From the NCBI GenBank assembly GCA_944380545.1, contig CALWHV010000014.1:124001-188000 (forward strand): a stretch of DNA of 64,000 nt. The letters are read 5' to 3'. Position 1 is the stretch's first letter. Every line of letters begins with the position of its first letter. Below, one piece after another: positions 18,441-28,300 of this stretch. The position numbers were made by a program, and so were the translations under genes. The notes below the pieces were generated by a model. The model worked only from the letters and a program-made list of their open reading frames with translations, had not been told where the DNA came from and did no database searches. The stretch is from an uncultured Eubacterium sp. Lineage in GTDB: Bacteria > Bacillota > Clostridia > Oscillospirales > Acutalibacteraceae.

Positions 18441-20084
<1,644 letters not shown>

Positions 20085-20103
20085 AGCATATCAAAGCAAA
20101 AAA

Positions 20104-20136
20104 GGTCCCGAAGGGTGCTTCCTCCGGGACTTTTTC
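20104..20136 (+). terminator. groESL terminator
   Basis: The stem GTCCCGaAGG / CCTcCGGGAC is followed by TTTTTC. It also stands between groEL and the convergent pyrophosphatase gene. Confidence 0.85.
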
Positions 20137-20163
20137 TTGTTGATGAATATTCAGCGTTAAATG

Positions 20164-20697
20164 CTACATTTGAAAGCGGCGTACATATTCCTCAATGCAG
20201 CTCTGGATTATCTCTTCCGCAGCCTCTCGATTCTGAAATTCGTTCACTATTGTGCGCTTGTCGTTTTCAAGTATCTTGTAGACCTCAAAGAAGTGCCTTA
20301 TCTCGTCAAATCTGTGCTTCGGAAGCTCGCTGATATCCGTATAGCAGTTGTAGTTCGGGTCGTTGACAGGCACTGCGATGATTTTTTCATCCCTTGTGCC
20401 GCTGTCCTCCATAATAAGCACGCCTATCGGCGAACATTCAACTATTGTCATAGGCTGTATCTTTTCGCTGCACAGCACAAGCACATCAAGAGGGTCCTTG
20501 TCGCTTGCAAAGGTGCGCGGTATGAAGCCGTAATTGGCGGGGTAGTGCGTGGAGGTAAACAACACTCGGTCAAGCTTGAGCATGCCGGTTTCTTTATCAA
20601 GCTCGTATTTGTTTTTGCCGCCCTTTGAGATTTCTATAACGGCGTAAAAGCGGTTTTTCTTGATTCTTTTTGGGCTGATATTGTGCCATATGTTCAT
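20164..20697 (-). CDS. ppa: Inorganic pyrophosphatase, family I
   Basis: A soluble pyrophosphatase of 177 residues, splitting PPi to two phosphates and so driving biosynthetic reactions. The metal-binding signature DKDPLDVLVL lies at about 65-74, with KNKYELDKETG near 28-38 and YPANYGFIPRT near 52-62, all as in the Mg-dependent family. The C-terminal half (HFFEVYKILE) is also typical. A strong AAAGGAGG precedes the ATG at 20697. It is convergent with groEL and divergent from azlC. Confidence 0.95.
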   Translation of the reverse strand: MNIWHNISPKRIKKNRFYAVIEISKGGKNKYELDKETGMLKLDRVLFTSTHYPANYGFIPRTFASDKDPLDVLVLCSEKIQPMTIVECSPIGVLIMEDSGTRDEKIIAVPVNDPNYNCYTDISELPKHRFDEIRHFFEVYKILENDKRTIVNEFQNREAAEEIIQSCIEEYVRRFQM

Positions 20698-20723
20698 AAG
20701 AACGCCTCCTTTAGTATGCTTTT

Positions 20724-20752
20724 ATGATAACATTTTTCACCGGCAAATACAA
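20724..20752 (-). promoter_or_regulatory. ppa promoter
   Basis: Read on the minus strand: TTGTAT (20752-20747), 17 bases, TATCAT (20729-20724). The Shine-Dalgarno AAAGGAGG follows about 12 bases later, giving a short leader. Confidence 0.5.
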
Positions 20753-20766
20753 CATAAAGATTTTTG

Positions 20767-20795
20767 TTGAAACCAAGATGGATTTGCTTTATAAT
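20767..20795 (+). promoter_or_regulatory. azlCD promoter
   Basis: TTGAAA (20767-20772), 17 bases, TATAAT (20790-20795): a near-consensus vegetative promoter in the ppa-azlC divergent gap. Confidence 0.75.
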
Positions 20796-20860
20796 ATTTC
20801 AGGATAAAATTCAGCCGGTGCGCCGATTTGTCGGCTATGAAGCGGCTCAAGAGGTTAATT

Positions 20861-21568
20861 ATGGATAATGGCAATAAAGCGTCAACCCTGCGCTTTGCAT
20901 TCAGAAAGTCGCTGCCCGTTCTTTTCGGCTATCTTTTTCTCGGCAGCGCATTCGGCATTATGCTTTATAATGCCGGCTATAATTGGATATGGGCGGCGTT
21001 TATCTCGCTTTTCGTTTATGCCGGATCGGGTCAATTTCTGCTCGTCTCTCTGCTCACCTCGGCGGCGAGTATCCCTACGGTCGCGATGATGACTCTGTTT
21101 GTCAACTCGCGCCATATGTTCTACGGCCTTTCGCTTATCGACAGGTTCAAGGCGGGCGGCTGGCGTTATCCTTTTATGATTTTTACGCTAACGGACGAGA
21201 CCTATTCCGTAAATATTTCCTTTGACCGCGTACCCGGCGGCGTTAGCGAGCCGCGCGCCCGTTTTTTGATAGGGGAGTTCGATCATCTTTACTGGATCCT
21301 CGGCTCCGTGCTCGGCTCGCTTCTCGGTCAAAGCCTGCCCGTTGATTTTACTGGTATTGATTTTTCGATGACGGCGCTTTTCACCGTTATTTTTGTGGAT
21401 CTTGTTATAGATATTAAAAATAAGATATGCGGGGCTGTTGGCGTATTCTGCGCTTTTGTGTGCCTGATGCTGTTCGGCGCGGATAATTTTTTGCTGCCCT
21501 CGCTTCTTCTGTGCGTTTTGCTGCTTTCCGCTGCAAAGCCGTTCTTTGAAAAAAGGGGGATTGAATAA
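20861..21568 (+). CDS. azlC: AzlC family branched-chain amino acid exporter, large subunit
   Basis: A membrane protein of 235 residues. It shows the AzlC opening ALRFAFRKSLPV-type segment, LGSAFGIMLYNAG, the conserved AGSGQFLLVSLL near residue 60 and FVNSRHMFYGL near 93, with about five to six hydrophobic helices. With AzlD it exports branched-chain amino acids or analogues (azaleucine resistance in Bacillus). ATG at 20861 is chosen over a start at 20828 because AGAGGTT precedes it. Its stop overlaps azlD by one base. Confidence 0.92.
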   Translation: MDNGNKASTLRFAFRKSLPVLFGYLFLGSAFGIMLYNAGYNWIWAAFISLFVYAGSGQFLLVSLLTSAASIPTVAMMTLFVNSRHMFYGLSLIDRFKAGGWRYPFMIFTLTDETYSVNISFDRVPGGVSEPRARFLIGEFDHLYWILGSVLGSLLGQSLPVDFTGIDFSMTALFTVIFVDLVIDIKNKICGAVGVFCAFVCLMLFGADNFLLPSLLLCVLLLSAAKPFFEKRGIE

Positions 21569-21903
21569 TGCCTCTTTCTTTCAAGCAAACCGTAATTATC
21601 ATCGCCGTTGCAGCGGTCTGCACCTTTGCAACAAGGCTTGTGCCGTTCGTTCTTTTCAGCGGAAAAAAGGAGCCACCTAAATTCGTGCGCTATATCGGCT
21701 CAGTGCTGCCCGTGGCAATAATCGGCGTCCTTATCGTTTACGGAATCGGAGACGCCCGCGAAACAGGCCTTTATGCGCTCTGGCCGAAGCTCATCGCCGT
21801 TGCGGCAACAGCGCTTGTCCATATATGGAGGCGCAACACACTTTTGAGCATTGCGGTCGGTACCATAGGTTATATGCTGCTCATAAATTTTGTTTTTGTT
21901 TAA
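21568..21903 (+). CDS. azlD: AzlD family branched-chain amino acid exporter, small subunit
   Basis: The 111-residue protein has about four membrane helices and matches AzlD: ATRLVPFVLFSGKKEPPKFV near the N-terminus, VLPVAIIGVLIVYG in the middle and a final RNTLLSIAVGTIGYMLL. It is the small partner of AzlC, with the genes joined as TAATG, which implies translational coupling and fixed ratios. Confidence 0.92.
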   Translation: MPLSFKQTVIIIAVAAVCTFATRLVPFVLFSGKKEPPKFVRYIGSVLPVAIIGVLIVYGIGDARETGLYALWPKLIAVAATALVHIWRRNTLLSIAVGTIGYMLLINFVFV

Positions 21904-21918
21904 CGCCGCCCTGCGCAC

Positions 21919-21947
21919 TTGAATATTTGATCCGTTTATTATAGAAT
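21919..21947 (+). promoter_or_regulatory. Promoter of the MIF-like / sirtuin / lipoprotein genes
   Basis: TTGAAT (21919-21924), 17 bases, TAGAAT (21942-21947), with AAGGAG shortly before the next ATG. Confidence 0.6.
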
Positions 21948-21975
21948 AGATGTATAAATTTAAGGAGTTGGTATT

Positions 21976-22314
21976 ATGCCTTTCATAAATGTTAAAACAA
22001 ACACACCCTTAACGGCTTCACAGCGCGAATCCGTAAAATCAAAGCTCGGCACGGCTATAGAAGATCTTGGCAAAACCGAAAGCTGGCTGATGATCGGCTT
22101 TGAGCCGGAGCAGTCAATGTATTTTAAGGGCAGCGACGAGCCTTGTGCCTTTGTGGATGTTTCCGTGTTCGGAAGCTCAAGCGATTCACAGTGTAAAAAG
22201 ATGACGGAGGATGTATGCGCCGTTATTTCCGGCGAGCTCGGAATTTCGGCGGACAGGATATATGTTAAATATTCCGGCACTTCCCAGTGGGGCTGGAACA
22301 ATATGAATTTTTAA
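21976..22314 (+). CDS. MIF/tautomerase superfamily protein
   Basis: This 112-residue protein resembles macrophage migration inhibitory factor and phenylpyruvate tautomerases. It begins MPFINVKTN, leaving proline as the first residue after Met removal, the catalytic base of the superfamily. The length and the pattern (central KTESWLMIGFEP and SMYFKGSDEPCAFVDVSVFG, C-terminal DRIYVKYSG) fit the MIF subgroup better than the short 4-oxalocrotonate enzymes. The natural substrate of the bacterial form is unknown. It is followed after 12 bases by the sirtuin gene. Confidence 0.85.
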   Translation: MPFINVKTNTPLTASQRESVKSKLGTAIEDLGKTESWLMIGFEPEQSMYFKGSDEPCAFVDVSVFGSSSDSQCKKMTEDVCAVISGELGISADRIYVKYSGTSQWGWNNMNF

Positions 22315-22326
22315 GAGGCATTTATT

Positions 22327-23043
22327 ATGACGCTTCAGCAGATTATCGATTGCAGCAGCAATATCGTCTTTTTCGGCGGAGCCGGCGTTTCTACGGAGAG
22401 CGGGATTCCCGATTTTCGTTCCGTTGACGGGCTTTATAATCAAAAATACGATTATCCGCCTGAGGAAATACTGTCGGACGGCTTTTTCAATACTCATACC
22501 GAAGAGTTTTACCGCTTTTACCGTGATAAAATGCTTTGTCTAAACGCAGAGCCGAACGCCGCTCATTACAAGCTGGCTGAGCTTGAAAGAGCGGGGAAGC
22601 TTTCCGCTGTTGTCACTCAGAATATTGACGGTCTGCATCAAAAGGCGGGCAGCAAAACCGTTTATGAGCTTCACGGCACGATTTGGAAAAATCATTGCAC
22701 AGCCTGCGCAAAGCAGTTTTCGGCCGAATATATAAGAGAATGCAGCGGTGTCCCGCGCTGCGATTCCTGCGGCGGCATCATTGCGCCGGATGTTGTGCTT
22801 TACGGGCAGAGCCTTGATATGAGGGTTATGAACGCGGCTGCAAACGCTATCTCAAGAGCTGACTGCCTTATCGTAGCAGGTACGAGTCTCGCCGTTTATC
22901 CCGCTGCGGGATTTATAAATTATTTCATCGGCGCCAATTTCGTGCTTATAAACAAGACGCAAACTCCGGCTGATTCCAAAGCACAGCTCGTTATTCACGA
23001 CAGCGTGGGCAAGGTGCTTTCCGAAATCAAGGTGAACGGGTGA
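22327..23043 (+). CDS. cobB: NAD-dependent protein deacylase (sirtuin)
   Basis: The 238-residue sirtuin removes acyl groups from protein lysines using NAD. Motifs: FFGGAGVSTESGIPDFRS near residue 15, TQNIDGLHQKAG near 97, catalytic histidine in YELHGT, a zinc site of two pairs (CTAC and CDSC), and the late VAGTSLAVYPAAG. All catalytic residues are present. It shares an operon with the MIF-like gene upstream and a lipoprotein gene 4 bases downstream. Confidence 0.94.
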   Translation: MTLQQIIDCSSNIVFFGGAGVSTESGIPDFRSVDGLYNQKYDYPPEEILSDGFFNTHTEEFYRFYRDKMLCLNAEPNAAHYKLAELERAGKLSAVVTQNIDGLHQKAGSKTVYELHGTIWKNHCTACAKQFSAEYIRECSGVPRCDSCGGIIAPDVVLYGQSLDMRVMNAAANAISRADCLIVAGTSLAVYPAAGFINYFIGANFVLINKTQTPADSKAQLVIHDSVGKVLSEIKVNG

Positions 23044-23047
23044 TAAG

Positions 23048-23929
23048 ATGAAAAAGATAATTTCTCTGCTTTTATGCCTGCTTTTGATTTGCTTGTCATT
23101 TAGCGGCTGCGCTGATAAAGCGCCGGAATATGAGCTTAAATATACTTATGATTCCCACTACTCGTTAGATGACGGCTCGCTTGAAATATATTCCGCGCTT
23201 TGCAAGGCTGCAGAAGCCGGCGAAAGCTCTGTCAGCATCGGTGAAACGGATTATGACGCAGCATTGAGGCTCTTTTACATTTCCTGCCCATTTTCTGCGT
23301 TTGTCAGCGATATGAATGTCAATTCAGACGGCAGCCTGAGAATTTCGTATAAGGAAACTCAGTCTAACATCGCTAAAAAGGCAGAACAGTTTGAGGAAGC
23401 TGTTGCCGCTGCGCTTTATGAGTGCGGTTACCCGGACGAGCCCGCCGAGGAACAGCTGCTGAATATTTATTCCTATGTTTCGCAGAATGTTTCATATAAC
23501 GGCGAATTGTCAACGGCATATGACGCTGCTGTGCAAAAAGAAGGCTCATCATCTGCGTATGAGGGAATGTTTCGCTATCTTGTGCAGCAGGCGGGATTTT
23601 CCGCGTCAAGAGTCTACGGCGTGGCGCACGATTCAACACATTTCATCACGCAGGTGGAGCTTGACGGCGAACTGTATTATTTTGATCCCTGCGCAGAAAA
23701 TTCTTTTTCCGGCGGCAAAGGCCTTTCGTATTTTGCAATGGATACGCTTGGACTTCAGAAGATGGGCTTAGGGGAGGGAACATGCTATTCCGATAATGAG
23801 CCTATAAGCTTTGACTCCTCCTCGGGCAGGTTTTCAAAGCTGTACCGCACGGTTTCATATGAATATAAAGACGGCGTTATAACAGCAACCACAAAAAGCG
23901 GAGAAGTTGTGCAAGTTGCACTAAAATAG
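23048..23929 (+). CDS. Lipoprotein with transglutaminase-like domain lacking the catalytic cysteine
   Basis: A protein of 293 residues with a signal peptide and lipobox SFSGC (lipid-modified C21). The later half (about 135-215) looks like a transglutaminase/protease core: GSSSAYEGMFRYLVQQAGF at 166-184, H198 in STHFIT, and D213 in YYFDP. In the family the first motif reads G-x-C, but here the position is serine (S168), so thiol catalysis seems lost while His and Asp remain. It may bind peptides or glycans at the membrane surface. The assignment rests on motif spacing only and is moderate. Confidence 0.6.
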   Translation: MKKIISLLLCLLLICLSFSGCADKAPEYELKYTYDSHYSLDDGSLEIYSALCKAAEAGESSVSIGETDYDAALRLFYISCPFSAFVSDMNVNSDGSLRISYKETQSNIAKKAEQFEEAVAAALYECGYPDEPAEEQLLNIYSYVSQNVSYNGELSTAYDAAVQKEGSSSAYEGMFRYLVQQAGFSASRVYGVAHDSTHFITQVELDGELYYFDPCAENSFSGGKGLSYFAMDTLGLQKMGLGEGTCYSDNEPISFDSSSGRFSKLYRTVSYEYKDGVITATTKSGEVVQVALK

Positions 23930-24016
23930 CTCTAATTGCTCGCTGTGAGTTTTCGCTCACTGTTTAATATGCACAAATATAATTGTAAAATAATTATTAA
24001 CAATACTCTTGCTTTG
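23930..24016. other. Intergenic gap between the lipoprotein gene and the small unit
   Basis: AT-rich sequence. It holds a weak 5-bp hairpin (GTGAG / CTCAC at 23945-23959) without a proper T-run, possibly a poor terminator for the lipoprotein gene. I see no other feature here. Confidence 0.4.
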
Positions 24017-24071
24017 TTGACTTTCGTTTCACTGTGAATATAATGTTGTTGCAATGCAAAAGGTGTTGCAA
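24017..24071 (+). promoter_or_regulatory. Strong promoter with start-site direct repeat, before the 22-codon ORF
   Basis: TTGACT (24017-24022), 16 bases, TATAAT (24039-24044): a near-perfect promoter. An exact 8-base direct repeat TGTTGCAA stands at 24047-24054 and 24064-24071, around the expected transcription start, where a repressor could bind. No larger gene lies between it and the terminator at 24204. Confidence 0.7.
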
Positions 24072-24096
24072 AATTCAGTTTTGGAGGCGAAAGTCG

Positions 24097-24165
24097 ATGT
24101 TCAAGCTTCTGATGAAATGCGCGCGTATTCTTGCCGAGTGCGATACCGCTTATTTTGAAAGATAA
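24097..24165 (+). CDS. Candidate 22-residue microprotein
   Basis: ATG at 24097 has GGAGG 9 bases ahead and opens a 22-codon frame ending in TAA at 24163-24165. The peptide begins MFKLLMKCARILAEC and ends DTAYFER; the first 14 residues would make an amphipathic helix with basic and hydrophobic faces and two cysteines. The ORF sits alone between its own promoter and a strong terminator, so a transcript of about 190 bases is expected. It could be a true small protein, a membrane-active peptide, or a translated region in a regulatory RNA. I know no family match. Confidence 0.45.
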   Translation: MFKLLMKCARILAECDTAYFER

Positions 24166-24203
24166 GCTGCGCCGAAAGATACCGCGGCATAGCAGAAATA
24201 ACC

Positions 24204-24243
24204 GCTCCGAAGCAGATCGGTCTGTTTCGGAGCTTATTTTTTT
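24204..24243 (+). terminator. Strong terminator of the small transcription unit
   Basis: An 8-bp stem GCTCCGAA / TTCGGAGC extended inward by CAGA / TCTG around a TCGG loop is followed by TTATTTTTTTT. One of the best terminators in the window. Confidence 0.92.
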
Positions 24244-24273
24244 AATATTCGCATAAATTTTGTCAAAATTCGG

Positions 24274-24302
24274 TTGCCAATCGGTCTGAAATATGTTAAA
24301 AT
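24274..24302 (+). promoter_or_regulatory. Promoter of the GPH-type transporter gene
   Basis: TTGCCA (24274-24279), 17 bases, TAAAAT (24297-24302). It lies after the terminator, so the transporter is transcribed separately from the small unit. Confidence 0.6.
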
Positions 24303-24354
24303 TGTATAGAACGCGTCAGCCGATGCGTTCAGGCAAATATTAAGGGGTGATAAA

Positions 24355-26808
24355 ATGGCTGATAAGGTTTCAGTCAAACAAAAAGTAGGCGGGTTTTTAG
24401 ACAACCTGCGCTACTACTGGAATGAGCCGCCCAAGGGCAAGTATATGACATTTAAAGAGATCGTGTCATATGCCGGCGGCGGTATCGGATGTTATTTCAT
24501 TATTCTGTTCGGTACGCAGCTCTCGGTTTCAACAACCAATATGATCGTCGGCGGCGCCATCGGCATCGGGCCCACCGATATGTATATCCTCTACATAATT
24601 TCCACGCTTGCCGGCATACCTCTTACCGGTATTCGTGCCAATATGGTAGACAACACGCGCGGGCGCGGCGGTAAATACAGGCCATACCTTATCTCTATCG
24701 GTATTCCCACTATCATATGCGCGCTCGGCTATGTTTATTTCCCTTATGACAGTCTGCAAAATCTCGTTTCCGGCGAGGTTTTCGGCCGCGAGGCGTATTA
24801 TGTTCTCAAATGCGCGGTCGTGCTTGTTTTCAACCTGCTGCTGTCTTTCTTCTACGCGTTCTTTAACGATGCATACACCAATCTTATCCATGTTCTTTCA
24901 CCGAACACGCAGGAAAGAACGGATGTTCTTGCGATTAAATCCGTTGTTTATTCGCTTGCTCCGTCCATTTCAAATATAGTTCTTCCTCTCGTTGCGCAGA
25001 TATTCACAAACGATGATCTTTACGATATCAATGTTTACAGGATCGCATATCCTCTTTATGCGCTTGTAGGTATTATAGGCACCGTTATTGTTTATGCCAA
25101 CACGCAGGAAAAGATCGTTCAGGCAAAGACACATACAATCCAGATCGGCTTTTGGGACGCTCTTAAAGAGGTTGCCAAAAACAAGTATTTCTGGATCATC
25201 TCACTTGCCGGCTGGCTCGGCTTCCTTGAGGGCGCCTACGGCAATATACTCACCTGGTCCTACAACTACGGTCATACCGCCACGGGCGGCGAGTTTGCCC
25301 TTATTCAAACGCTTACGGGTAATGCTTCCCTGTGGGGCATGCTGCTTGCCCCGTTGTGTATCAGAAAATGGGGCAAAAAGCGCGTGCTTATCGGCATCAA
25401 TATTCTCAATATCCTGTTTATTCTTGCCATGGGCATAAATATGGACAGTATTTGGTGGCTCTTCATCTGCGTTTACTTCAACTGGCTCGTCGGCGCGTTC
25501 GAGCAGATAACTACGCCTGCTATCCAGGCTGATATACGCGACTATCAGCAGTATAAGTCCGGCGAGCGCATAGACGGAATGTTTGCCGCAGTAACCACCA
25601 TCGGCGGCGTTATAACTCTGTTTACCTCCGGCGTGCTTCCCGCAGTTCAGGAGATGTACGGAATTAAGGACGGCAACGGCTATGAAAGTCCGTACGATAT
25701 TCTTGATGTAACCACCGGCCAGCCCGGCCTGCTGCACGATATGATGTGGGCGGTAATCATAATGGCTGCCGTCGGCGCTTTCCTCAATATGGTTCCGTAT
25801 CTGTTTTATGATTTCACGGAGAAAAAGCAAAAGTCCGTCGTTCGCGTACTCCAGGTCCGCGCGCTGTTTGAGGATTACGGCAATAACGCACTTGATAATC
25901 ATCAGATAGTTGAAGCCATTGATATGGTTGAGGAAGCAAGAACCATGTCCGTAGCTAAGCCCAAAAAGGCTGACAAGGATTCGTATAGAAACATCAAGGA
26001 TAAAGCTCAGTACAAGGCTGCAAAGAAGGCTTATAAGGACGCAGTTGCATATAACGAAGAGATAGATATCGCAAAATTCGTCTGCAACGAGCTTGATAAG
26101 TTCGACACAGAGCTTTATAAATATCAGATAGATGTTTACGAAAAGATCTACGAGAACGGAATCGAAGGCCTTGTAGGCACTTCTTACGACAGCATTGCAA
26201 AAGAGCTTGCAGCCGCAAAGGCTATGCCTCAGCACAGCGAGGAGCAAAAGGAGATACGCAAATTTGCCGTTAAGCTTGCAAAATCAAAGAAGTCTGCAAA
26301 GAAGGCGTTTGAAAAGTATTACGGCTCGATAAAGGATTTCACGGAGCCGGATATGGCGGATCTTACCAAGCTGTTTGACGAGGAAGACGCTATTGAGGAT
26401 AAGATTTATAAGCTTGTGGATAAAAGAACCGCAGCCAAAAAGGCAAAAGACAATGCTGCGTTTGAAGCCGCTAAGGATGAGATCAAAAAGCTCAATATTC
26501 AGCTCAAGGCGGCAAGAGCAAGAAGCAAGAAAAAGATGGATGAATTTGCACAGTTCAATAAGTCCGCAAAGCCGTTTATCGACGCGCGCAAGCTTCTGCT
26601 TCAAAAAGAGAATTACAGCCATTTTGACGAGATCGCGGCTCTTTACGAGGATGCAAAGCTCAAGGCAGACGCCGAAGATCGCGAAAAAGAAGAGCTTGCC
26701 GCTCTCAAGCGCATGGAGCAGGAGGCCGAGCTTGCTGCAAGAAAGGCTCAAAAGGCTCTTAAGAAATCTCAAAAGGCAGAAAAGAAGAATAATAAAAAGA
26801 ACGATTGA
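24355..26808 (+). CDS. GPH-type (MelB-like) MFS sugar transporter with long charged cytoplasmic tail
   Basis: An 817-residue protein. Residues up to about 485 form a 12-helix transporter of the glycoside-pentoside-hexuronide cation symporter family: the loop DNTRGRGGKYRPYLIS near residue 100 is the family signature, and the later QADIRDYQQYKSGERIDG is also GPH-like. The remaining 330 residues have no membrane segment, are very rich in Lys, Ala, Glu and Asp, and are predicted helical to coiled coil, ending in KKSQKAEKKNNKKND. Usual GPH proteins are 450-500 residues. The tail is not a PTS IIA domain. Substrate is likely a glycoside; no sugar gene is adjacent. Start: ATG after GGGGTGATAAA. Confidence 0.85.
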   Translation: MADKVSVKQKVGGFLDNLRYYWNEPPKGKYMTFKEIVSYAGGGIGCYFIILFGTQLSVSTTNMIVGGAIGIGPTDMYILYIISTLAGIPLTGIRANMVDNTRGRGGKYRPYLISIGIPTIICALGYVYFPYDSLQNLVSGEVFGREAYYVLKCAVVLVFNLLLSFFYAFFNDAYTNLIHVLSPNTQERTDVLAIKSVVYSLAPSISNIVLPLVAQIFTNDDLYDINVYRIAYPLYALVGIIGTVIVYANTQEKIVQAKTHTIQIGFWDALKEVAKNKYFWIISLAGWLGFLEGAYGNILTWSYNYGHTATGGEFALIQTLTGNASLWGMLLAPLCIRKWGKKRVLIGINILNILFILAMGINMDSIWWLFICVYFNWLVGAFEQITTPAIQADIRDYQQYKSGERIDGMFAAVTTIGGVITLFTSGVLPAVQEMYGIKDGNGYESPYDILDVTTGQPGLLHDMMWAVIIMAAVGAFLNMVPYLFYDFTEKKQKSVVRVLQVRALFEDYGNNALDNHQIVEAIDMVEEARTMSVAKPKKADKDSYRNIKDKAQYKAAKKAYKDAVAYNEEIDIAKFVCNELDKFDTELYKYQIDVYEKIYENGIEGLVGTSYDSIAKELAAAKAMPQHSEEQKEIRKFAVKLAKSKKSAKKAFEKYYGSIKDFTEPDMADLTKLFDEEDAIEDKIYKLVDKRTAAKKAKDNAAFEAAKDEIKKLNIQLKAARARSKKKMDEFAQFNKSAKPFIDARKLLLQKENYSHFDEIAALYEDAKLKADAEDREKEELAALKRMEQEAELAARKAQKALKKSQKAEKKNNKKND

Positions 26809-26824
26809 TCGCTCTTTAACCAAC

Positions 26825-26857
26825 AGGCTGTTCGCATTTCGCGGGCAGCCTTTTTTA
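26825..26857 (+). terminator. Terminator after the transporter gene
   Basis: An 11-bp stem AGGCTGTTCGC / GCGGGCAGCCT (two G-U pairs) with loop ATTTC and a TTTTTT run. Confidence 0.88.
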
Positions 26858-26897
26858 CTGCAAAACACAACAAAAAAATAACGCTTCGCCTCGGTTA

Positions 26898-26926
26898 TTA
26901 CATTTCAGCATTTTTTCGCATATTAT
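26898..26926 (+). promoter_or_regulatory. Promoter of the DUF3343-cysteine desulfurase pair
   Basis: TTACAT (26898-26903), 17 bases, TATTAT (26921-26926), followed by ATGAGGT near the start of the DUF3343 gene. Confidence 0.5.
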
Positions 26927-26955
26927 GCAGTATGAATTGAAATGAGGTAATCGCA

Positions 26956-27183
26956 ATGAGCTATTATATAAAAGTAGGCAGTATAACTAACGCGCAGCGC
27001 GCAAGAAGTTTTCTTCATTCAGCCTCCGTTAAGGCGCAGATAAGAAAGCTTCCCGATCCTAAGCCCGGCGACGGCTGCGGATATGTGCTTCTTGTAGACG
27101 AGCAGGATTTGCAAAGATCTCTTTCAAGACTTGAAAGAGCCGGTATACGGGTTTTGGGGGCGCAAAAATATGATTTATCTTGA
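26956..27183 (+). CDS. DUF3343 small protein (putative sulfur/selenium carrier)
   Basis: A 75-residue protein of the DUF3343 family (PF11823, named a putative Se/S carrier-like protein). The conserved cysteine lies in GDGCGYVLLV near residue 40, corresponding to the SCG motif of the family. It overlaps a cysteine desulfurase gene by 14 bases, which fits a role in receiving persulfide or selenium from it. The acceptor downstream is not visible here; no selD or selenoprotein genes lie near. Confidence 0.8.
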   Translation: MSYYIKVGSITNAQRARSFLHSASVKAQIRKLPDPKPGDGCGYVLLVDEQDLQRSLSRLERAGIRVLGAQKYDLS

Positions 27184-28300
27184 TAACGGCGCAACTTCAT
27201 ATCCCAAGCCGGCGCAGGTGCTCAGAAGCACGGTTGAAGCTCTAAAAAATTTCAGCTTCAATTCCGGCAGAGGAGGCTACAGGCAGTCGGTCAAAGCAGC
27301 CGAAAAAATATATCAGGTCCGCGAAAAGGTTTCCGGAATGTTTTCCTGCGAACCGCAAAACATCGTTTTTACGAAAAACTGCACGGAAGCGCTCAATATA
27401 GCGATAAAAGGCTCGGTAAAAAAAGGAAGCCATGTTATCATTTCCTCTTTGGAGCACAATGCCGTTTGGCGCGTTGTTTCAAAGCTCAAAGAGCAGGGAA
27501 TTATTGATTTTGATATTGCTGATTTTGATTATGACGATGATGTATGCGTTTCAAATTTTGAGTCGTTCATCAGAGAGAATACCGACCTTATTGTTTGTAT
27601 GACAGCTTCAAATGTTTTCGGGGTAGCTTTTCCTGTCAGGCGGCTCGCCGCGCTCGCTCACAGATACTCGGTGCGCTTTATTGCCGATGCCGCTCAGACT
27701 GCCGGCATTATGCCTGTCGGCATAGAAAGCGACGGAGCTGACATTATCTGCGCTCCCGGTCACAAATGCCTGTATGCTCAAATGGGAACGGGCTTTATGG
27801 CTTCTGCAAAAAATATCAAGCTCGATACGCTGATACAAGGCGGCACGGGCAGCGCATCACTGAGCGCCTCTCAGCCCTCCGAGCCTCCCGAACGCTTTGA
27901 AGCCGGTACGCTCAATAACAGCGGCATAATCTCTCTCGGTGCGGGAATTGATTTTATAAATAATAGGGGAATGGAGAATATTTACGGCCACGAGATGCGA
28001 CTCGCTCGGTTTTTATACGACGGAATAAATCAATCGCCCAACACTCGCCTTTATGTGCCGCGGCCGGAAAACGGCAAGAGCGCGCCGATTATTGCGTTTA
28101 ATATGGACGGAAAATCAAGCGAAAGTGTCGCCGCTTCTCTTGCGGCTCACGATATCGCGGTCAGGGCGGGCTATCACTGCTCGGCTCTTGCCCATTCGTT
28201 TTTTAAAACGCTTGATACGGGAGTCGTTCGCCTCTGTCCGTCCGTGTTCACCACGCAAAGGGATTGTGAAGTTTTTTTAAATACTTTAAAAAAACTTTGA
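27170..28300 (+). CDS. Cysteine desulfurase-like class V aminotransferase
   Basis: This PLP enzyme of 376 residues starts MIYLDNGATSYPKP, as in the SufS/CsdA-type group. EHNAVWRV near residue 98, DAAQTAGIMPV near 176 and the PLP lysine in APGHKCLYAQMG near 198 are clear; the catalytic cysteine is in RAGYHCSALAH near 342. It would take sulfur (or selenium) from cysteine (or selenocysteine). The ATG at 27170 is chosen because the family start follows it; the ORF extends 13 codons upstream into DUF3343. No SufU or IscU gene is nearby, so iron-sulfur assembly is not implied. Confidence 0.92.
   Translation: MIYLDNGATSYPKPAQVLRSTVEALKNFSFNSGRGGYRQSVKAAEKIYQVREKVSGMFSCEPQNIVFTKNCTEALNIAIKGSVKKGSHVIISSLEHNAVWRVVSKLKEQGIIDFDIADFDYDDDVCVSNFESFIRENTDLIVCMTASNVFGVAFPVRRLAALAHRYSVRFIADAAQTAGIMPVGIESDGADIICAPGHKCLYAQMGTGFMASAKNIKLDTLIQGGTGSASLSASQPSEPPERFEAGTLNNSGIISLGAGIDFINNRGMENIYGHEMRLARFLYDGINQSPNTRLYVPRPENGKSAPIIAFNMDGKSSESVAASLAAHDIAVRAGYHCSALAHSFFKTLDTGVVRLCPSVFTTQRDCEVFLNTLKKL

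Follow-up and report, generated by a model that had tools for sequence, protein, structure and literature searches.

In the window, that is, the whole 64-kb stretch of DNA analysed here, a compact unit lies at 24017-24243, between a lipoprotein gene and an MFS_2 sugar transporter gene separated by 425 bases. The sequence-only reading had described a promoter, a Shine-Dalgarno sequence, a 22-codon open reading frame (ORF) and a terminator, and direct reading found all of them where it had placed them (Table 1). The promoter scores 11/12, which ties for the best within 20000-28000. Nine bases separate the GGAGG from the ATG at 24097, the 22 codons run to 24162 and TAA occupies 24163-24165. The terminator had been called strong and, indeed, its stem has the most stem pairs among the 16 terminator-like sites of the interval 20000-28000; a promoter-like site lies 3' of it. 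The whole transcript is predicted to fold stably (z -4.2), much of this fold being the terminator and a 5' hairpin.

Table 1. Coordinates of the parts of the microprotein unit in the window
Feature	Position	Strand	Details and basis
A/T-rich upstream element, degenerate in the window copy	23968-23997	+	promoter alignment of relatives
Sigma-70/A promoter, TTGACT-N16-TATAAT	24017-24044	+	-35 at 24017-24022, -10 at 24039-24044; sequence read directly
5'-terminal RNA hairpin, containing the TGTTGCAA repeat	24049-24071	+	fold; covariation across long-leader relatives
Shine-Dalgarno sequence, GGAGG	24083-24087	+	read directly; shared by nearly all relatives
ORF of the 22-residue microprotein MFKLLMKCARILAECDTAYFER, plus stop	24097-24165	+	homologue alignments; codon test
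Intrinsic terminator	24204-24243	+	stem at 24204-24233, then a T tract

We scanned the 64-kb window for units combining a promoter of at least 10/12, a GGAGG, an ORF of 15-40 amino acids and a terminator, and the only match was the unit at 24017-24243. Forty Markov-1 resamples, each of 64 kb, contained no matching unit. The arrangement of promoter, Shine-Dalgarno sequence, ORF and terminator is not a product of chance.

A first DNA search of 60 related genomes gave clear homologues confined to the same genus, whose translations aligned with the 22-residue ORF. Degenerate patterns led to 19 named loci, mostly from uncultured Clostridia and in several cases from animal guts and rumen; Clostridium sp. 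CAG:678 and rumen 'Eubacterium' assemblies are among them. One of these patterns, MKCAxILA, also caught another gene, GlmU, by its start (MKCAIILAGG), and these hits were removed. A profile search of the genus was positive in 43 of 80 genomes and a diverged copy, MYKFLVTCVKILVALDREHY, added one more, so that 44 genomes carry 48 copies of 20-31 residues, one of them truncated at a contig end; in four genomes the gene is present twice, as a paralogue pair. The carriers share the same anatomy of promoter, Shine-Dalgarno sequence, ORF and terminator: an ATG with a GGAGG or close variant is found in nearly all copies, and terminator-like stems follow the stop codon in nearly all relatives. The other 36 of the 80 genomes have no detectable copy, hence the gene is not essential genus-wide.

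Outside the genus, the first profile found no relative in about 390 genomes from other genera of the family, and with the refined profile the only matches in these genera were chance ones, to parts of longer ORFs. A sample of 391 genomes drawn from across the class added further hits, all judged to be chance. Of the hits outside the genus, those in genomes G1048, G484, G663 and G739 are fragments within longer ORFs, and the one in G919 does not have the motif context. A segment resembling the start of the microprotein, MFRLLxKCAEIAA, is present in these other Clostridia in a longer ORF (L191, in G1048) and in a short frame (L190, in G919), and was also judged to be chance. Profiles from Pfam, NCBIfam and PHROGs gave no significant match (a PHROG hit with E = 0.063 falls short of significance), no copies turned up in the phage, plasmid and viral collections, a profile search of PDB sequences for solved structures returned nothing significant, and Rfam 15 gave no match at gathering score. 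As far as the tools used reach, the family is restricted to the genus.

The ORF was then judged by its codons. Among 45 copies, pS is 0.74 and pN 0.26, a ratio of 0.36, whereas the two other frames yield 1.16 and 1.48, and third codon positions take 54% of the changes. Synonymous sites are thus near saturation while the amino acids are conserved: between the window copy and its nearest relatives (G027 and G030), 83-89% of synonymous sites differ and only 10-12% of non-synonymous sites. Since codons are conserved in frame and the out-of-frame ratios exceed 1, the ORF is a real, unannotated protein gene under purifying selection on its amino-acid sequence. The sequence-only reading had named codon conservation in relatives as the sign of a protein, and its microprotein option is borne out. 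The family consensus is MxKLLxKCAxILAxxDxAYV, with Cys8, Ala9, Ile11, Leu12, Ala13, Asp16 and Tyr19 near-invariant, and the highly variable positions 10, 14, 17 and 21 interspersed among them; Pro17 is frequent. Aligning the transcripts by eye, we saw no conserved sequence outside the promoter, the Shine-Dalgarno sequence and the ORF.

The promoter is equally recurrent. Nearly every copy has TTGAC(T/A)-N16-TATAAT with its 16-base spacer, the mean score across copies is 11.1/12, and the matches of a promoter-anchored pattern across the genus are mostly the microprotein gene. Relatives at the lipoprotein locus carry, just 5' of the -35 box, an A/T-rich element with an 11-base period, ACAAAAATCAA-ATGTAAACAAA-TTATAAACTAA, a candidate UP element or activator site. 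In a search of nine genomes, its exact and one-mismatch copies were found almost only at microprotein genes. We also considered a regulon defined by this element and rejected it: sites with two mismatches precede unrelated genes, and no regulator could be named. Likewise, the other promoters of the same design in the window's genome are ordinary strong ones with no common theme, for example before a ribosomal-protein-like gene.

An exact direct repeat had been noted at the start of the transcript. Both copies of TGTTGCAA are present (24047-24054 and 24064-24071), but the repetition results from the palindromic core TTGCAA, and relatives preserve the inverted repeat at 24049-24071 instead. When the transcript start is set 6-7 bases after the -10 box, as we infer, the hairpin lies within or next to this start in 33 copies with a long leader. 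It is upstream of the Shine-Dalgarno sequence and leaves the ribosome site open. The stem sequences differ widely (GCAATGC/GCATTGT, AACAGTT/AACTGTT, ACAAATG/CATTTGT, AACGAGG/CCTCGTT), and yet 217 of 231 positions pair in these 33 copies, against 174 ± 3.7 in shuffles; the arms were taken from the best stem near the start and the shuffles underwent the same choice, which makes the comparison fair. In addition, an arm pairs at 6.6 of 7 positions with its own partner and at 3.2 of 7 when partners are swapped. A minority of the long-leader copies have only a weak or long-looped best stem. In a DNA operator the sequence itself would be conserved; since the stem sequence changes, the constraint acts on RNA pairing. 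In most long-leader copies it is the pairing of the hairpin, not its sequence, that is kept by compensatory change. Compensatory changes had been proposed as the mark of an RNA; they do exist in the 5' leader, but are limited to this short hairpin at the mRNA start. Twelve further copies have a short leader of 24-28 bases, most without a hairpin, so a stabiliser hairpin is not essential. According to works listed in PMC3997798, E. coli and B. subtilis have mRNAs that are stabilised by a 5'-terminal stem-loop; by this analogy the hairpin is probably an mRNA stabiliser, which is its simplest reading.

The unit occurs in at least three neighbourhoods (Sir2/lipoprotein, aspS/HD-nucleotidase and dnaC-like), where gene names other than Sir2 and MFS_2 were assigned by reading the sequences. 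In 20 genomes it follows the lipoprotein gene, usually after Sir2, and precedes the MFS_2 transporter or a phosphohexomutase gene; other copies follow aspS and an HD-domain nucleotidase gene, or else a dnaC-like gene. We also found empty sites, at which the transporter directly follows the lipoprotein gene after a gap of about 20-190 bases, in 8 non-carriers and in 6 carriers whose copy lies at another place. Changing neighbourhoods together with empty sites indicate a discrete unit and not a leader of its neighbour: it is an autonomous cassette.

Some features of the surroundings were recorded in their own right. The lipoprotein of the window (23048-23929) has no Pfam match and shows transglutaminase-like sequence features; it occurs in 52 of the 80 genomes of the genus and frequently precedes the MFS_2 transporter. 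The transporter (24355-26808) carries a Lys/Ala-rich extension of about 330 residues past the transport domain, the Pfam match stopping at residue 488 of the 817. Beside the Sir2 gene, 21976-22314 encodes a bacterial member of the macrophage migration inhibitory factor (MIF) family (Pfam E = 1.2e-14). Finally, a site TATAAACTAATTCTAAACA (L140, L147, position 1501) is found in four genomes and, in the two that were read, between divergent genes for an NAD-dependent epimerase-like protein and a secreted protein.

A model built with the family alignment predicts helices at residues 2-14 and 17-30 with a mean pLDDT of 88; the protein modelled is a longer, 31-residue relative, and for single helices even a high pLDDT is no strong evidence of a fold. 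The first helix is amphipathic, charged residues lie inside it, and Asp16 heads the second helix, as is typical of a helix cap. The peptide is thus predicted to consist of an amphipathic helix (2-14) followed, after a kink, by another short helix with Asp16 as its cap. An amphipathic start and two cysteines had been pointed out earlier; the amphipathic first helix and the conservation of Cys8 agree with this, but Cys15 is found in few relatives. In the copies computed, GRAVY ranges from -0.29 to 0.56 and the mean hydrophobicity of residues 2-14 from 0.13 to 0.43.

Several other explanations were weighed. The size of about 190 bases and the good fold would fit a stand-alone regulatory RNA with an incidental ORF, as had been suggested; however, codon-level selection and homologues in 44 genomes make this, as well as a chance arrangement (no unit in the 40 resampled windows), extremely improbable. 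Indeed, the codon pattern and the absence of conserved sequence from the remaining transcript exclude a stand-alone RNA for practical purposes. It is unlikely that the transcript has a dual function, acting by base pairing as a small RNA besides coding for the peptide. An autonomous short transcript with a terminator, a stable whole-transcript fold and a covarying 5' hairpin would suit such a role, but the fold is largely terminator and 5' hairpin, no Rfam family matches, synonymous sites are near saturation, and no conserved sequence was seen beyond promoter, Shine-Dalgarno sequence and ORF. The position of the unit before the MFS_2 transporter in 11 genomes might recall a leader peptide or attenuator of this gene. 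We consider this very improbable, given that 11 other genomes have a phosphohexomutase gene downstream and further ones have unrelated genes, that in 14 genomes the transporter comes directly after the lipoprotein gene with no unit between, that a promoter-like site follows the terminator, and that conservation concerns the peptide sequence and not one codon type.

The peptide itself might be exported, as a signal or as the precursor of a modified peptide, in keeping with its 20-31 residues, its positively charged amphipathic start and its invariant Cys, Asp and Tyr. This proposal, which the sequence-only reading had put forward for signalling, now appears unlikely: the hydrophobicity of residues 2-14 is low in the copies computed, unlike that of a signal peptide, the whole chain and not a C-terminal mature part is conserved, locations vary, and the recurrent neighbours include no regulator, exporter or modifying enzyme. 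A toxic peptide had also been envisaged. A type I toxin-antitoxin toxin or a membrane-active peptide would be short and amphipathic, and could be encoded by an autonomous cassette at changing sites, twice in some genomes. It is nevertheless quite improbable here, because the antisense strand has no promoter signal above chance (score of 8.74 versus 8.82 in shuffles, for sigma-70-type promoters only), a membrane-spanning segment is not evident from the GRAVY values, and no copies were found in the plasmid, phage and viral collections searched. Moreover, a consensus promoter, an open Shine-Dalgarno sequence and a 5' stem-loop speak for high expression, which is not what a repressed toxin would show.

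We therefore favour, as the likely reading, a strongly expressed, autonomous microprotein gene of a genus-restricted family, whose predicted helix-kink-helix peptide would act in trans on a putative conserved partner. The consensus promoter and the A/T-rich upstream element would yield an abundant peptide, and the 5' stem-loop, by shielding the mRNA start from decay enzymes, would increase its amount. The peptide, presumably soluble, would act in trans in the cytoplasm. Its near-invariant residues alternate with freely varying ones, the pattern expected of a binding or docking surface; a surface formed by Cys8, Ala9, Leu12, Ala13, Asp16 and Tyr19 might thus dock on one putative conserved partner, a protein or a complex, and the peptide may be a small regulator or an accessory subunit. 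More tentatively, and with a rather low probability, the unit could be a cassette of about 240 bases (promoter, 5' stabiliser hairpin, 22-28 codon gene and terminator) that moves or duplicates between intergenic sites without mobile-element genes, the peptide serving a core cellular machine as its dedicated helix-kink-helix regulator.

Evolution here reveals a clear gene that is too small for standard gene finders, in a large uncultured lineage of gut and rumen. With all regulatory parts in 230 bases, more than 40 aligned variants and natural sets of genomes with and without the gene, its partner and role are directly testable.

Among bacteria, functional microproteins such as SpoVM, MciZ and SgrT bind to larger proteins or to a membrane surface. 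The present peptide resembles them as a short amphipathic or helical peptide that would act in trans, and no sequence relation to them was found. As for the leader, the E. coli ompA mRNA is stabilised by a 5'-terminal stem-loop. The same holds for E. coli papA and the B. subtilis aprE leader, according to works listed in PMC3997798. As in these three cases, the stem-loop described here stands a few bases from the putative mRNA start and precedes an open ribosome site; in contrast, the mRNA has 22 codons, the stabiliser is putative and most of the 12 short-leader copies do without it. Finally, the GMSC catalogue holds over 52 million genus-specific small-protein families, and few small-protein families have a known domain (PMC11364881). 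As far as tested against Pfam, NCBIfam, PHROGs and phage, plasmid and viral records, the family is new and its kind is already known: like the GMSC families it is a short ORF confined to one genus with no known domain, but here the anatomy, the selection test, the leader structure and the changing sites are also defined.
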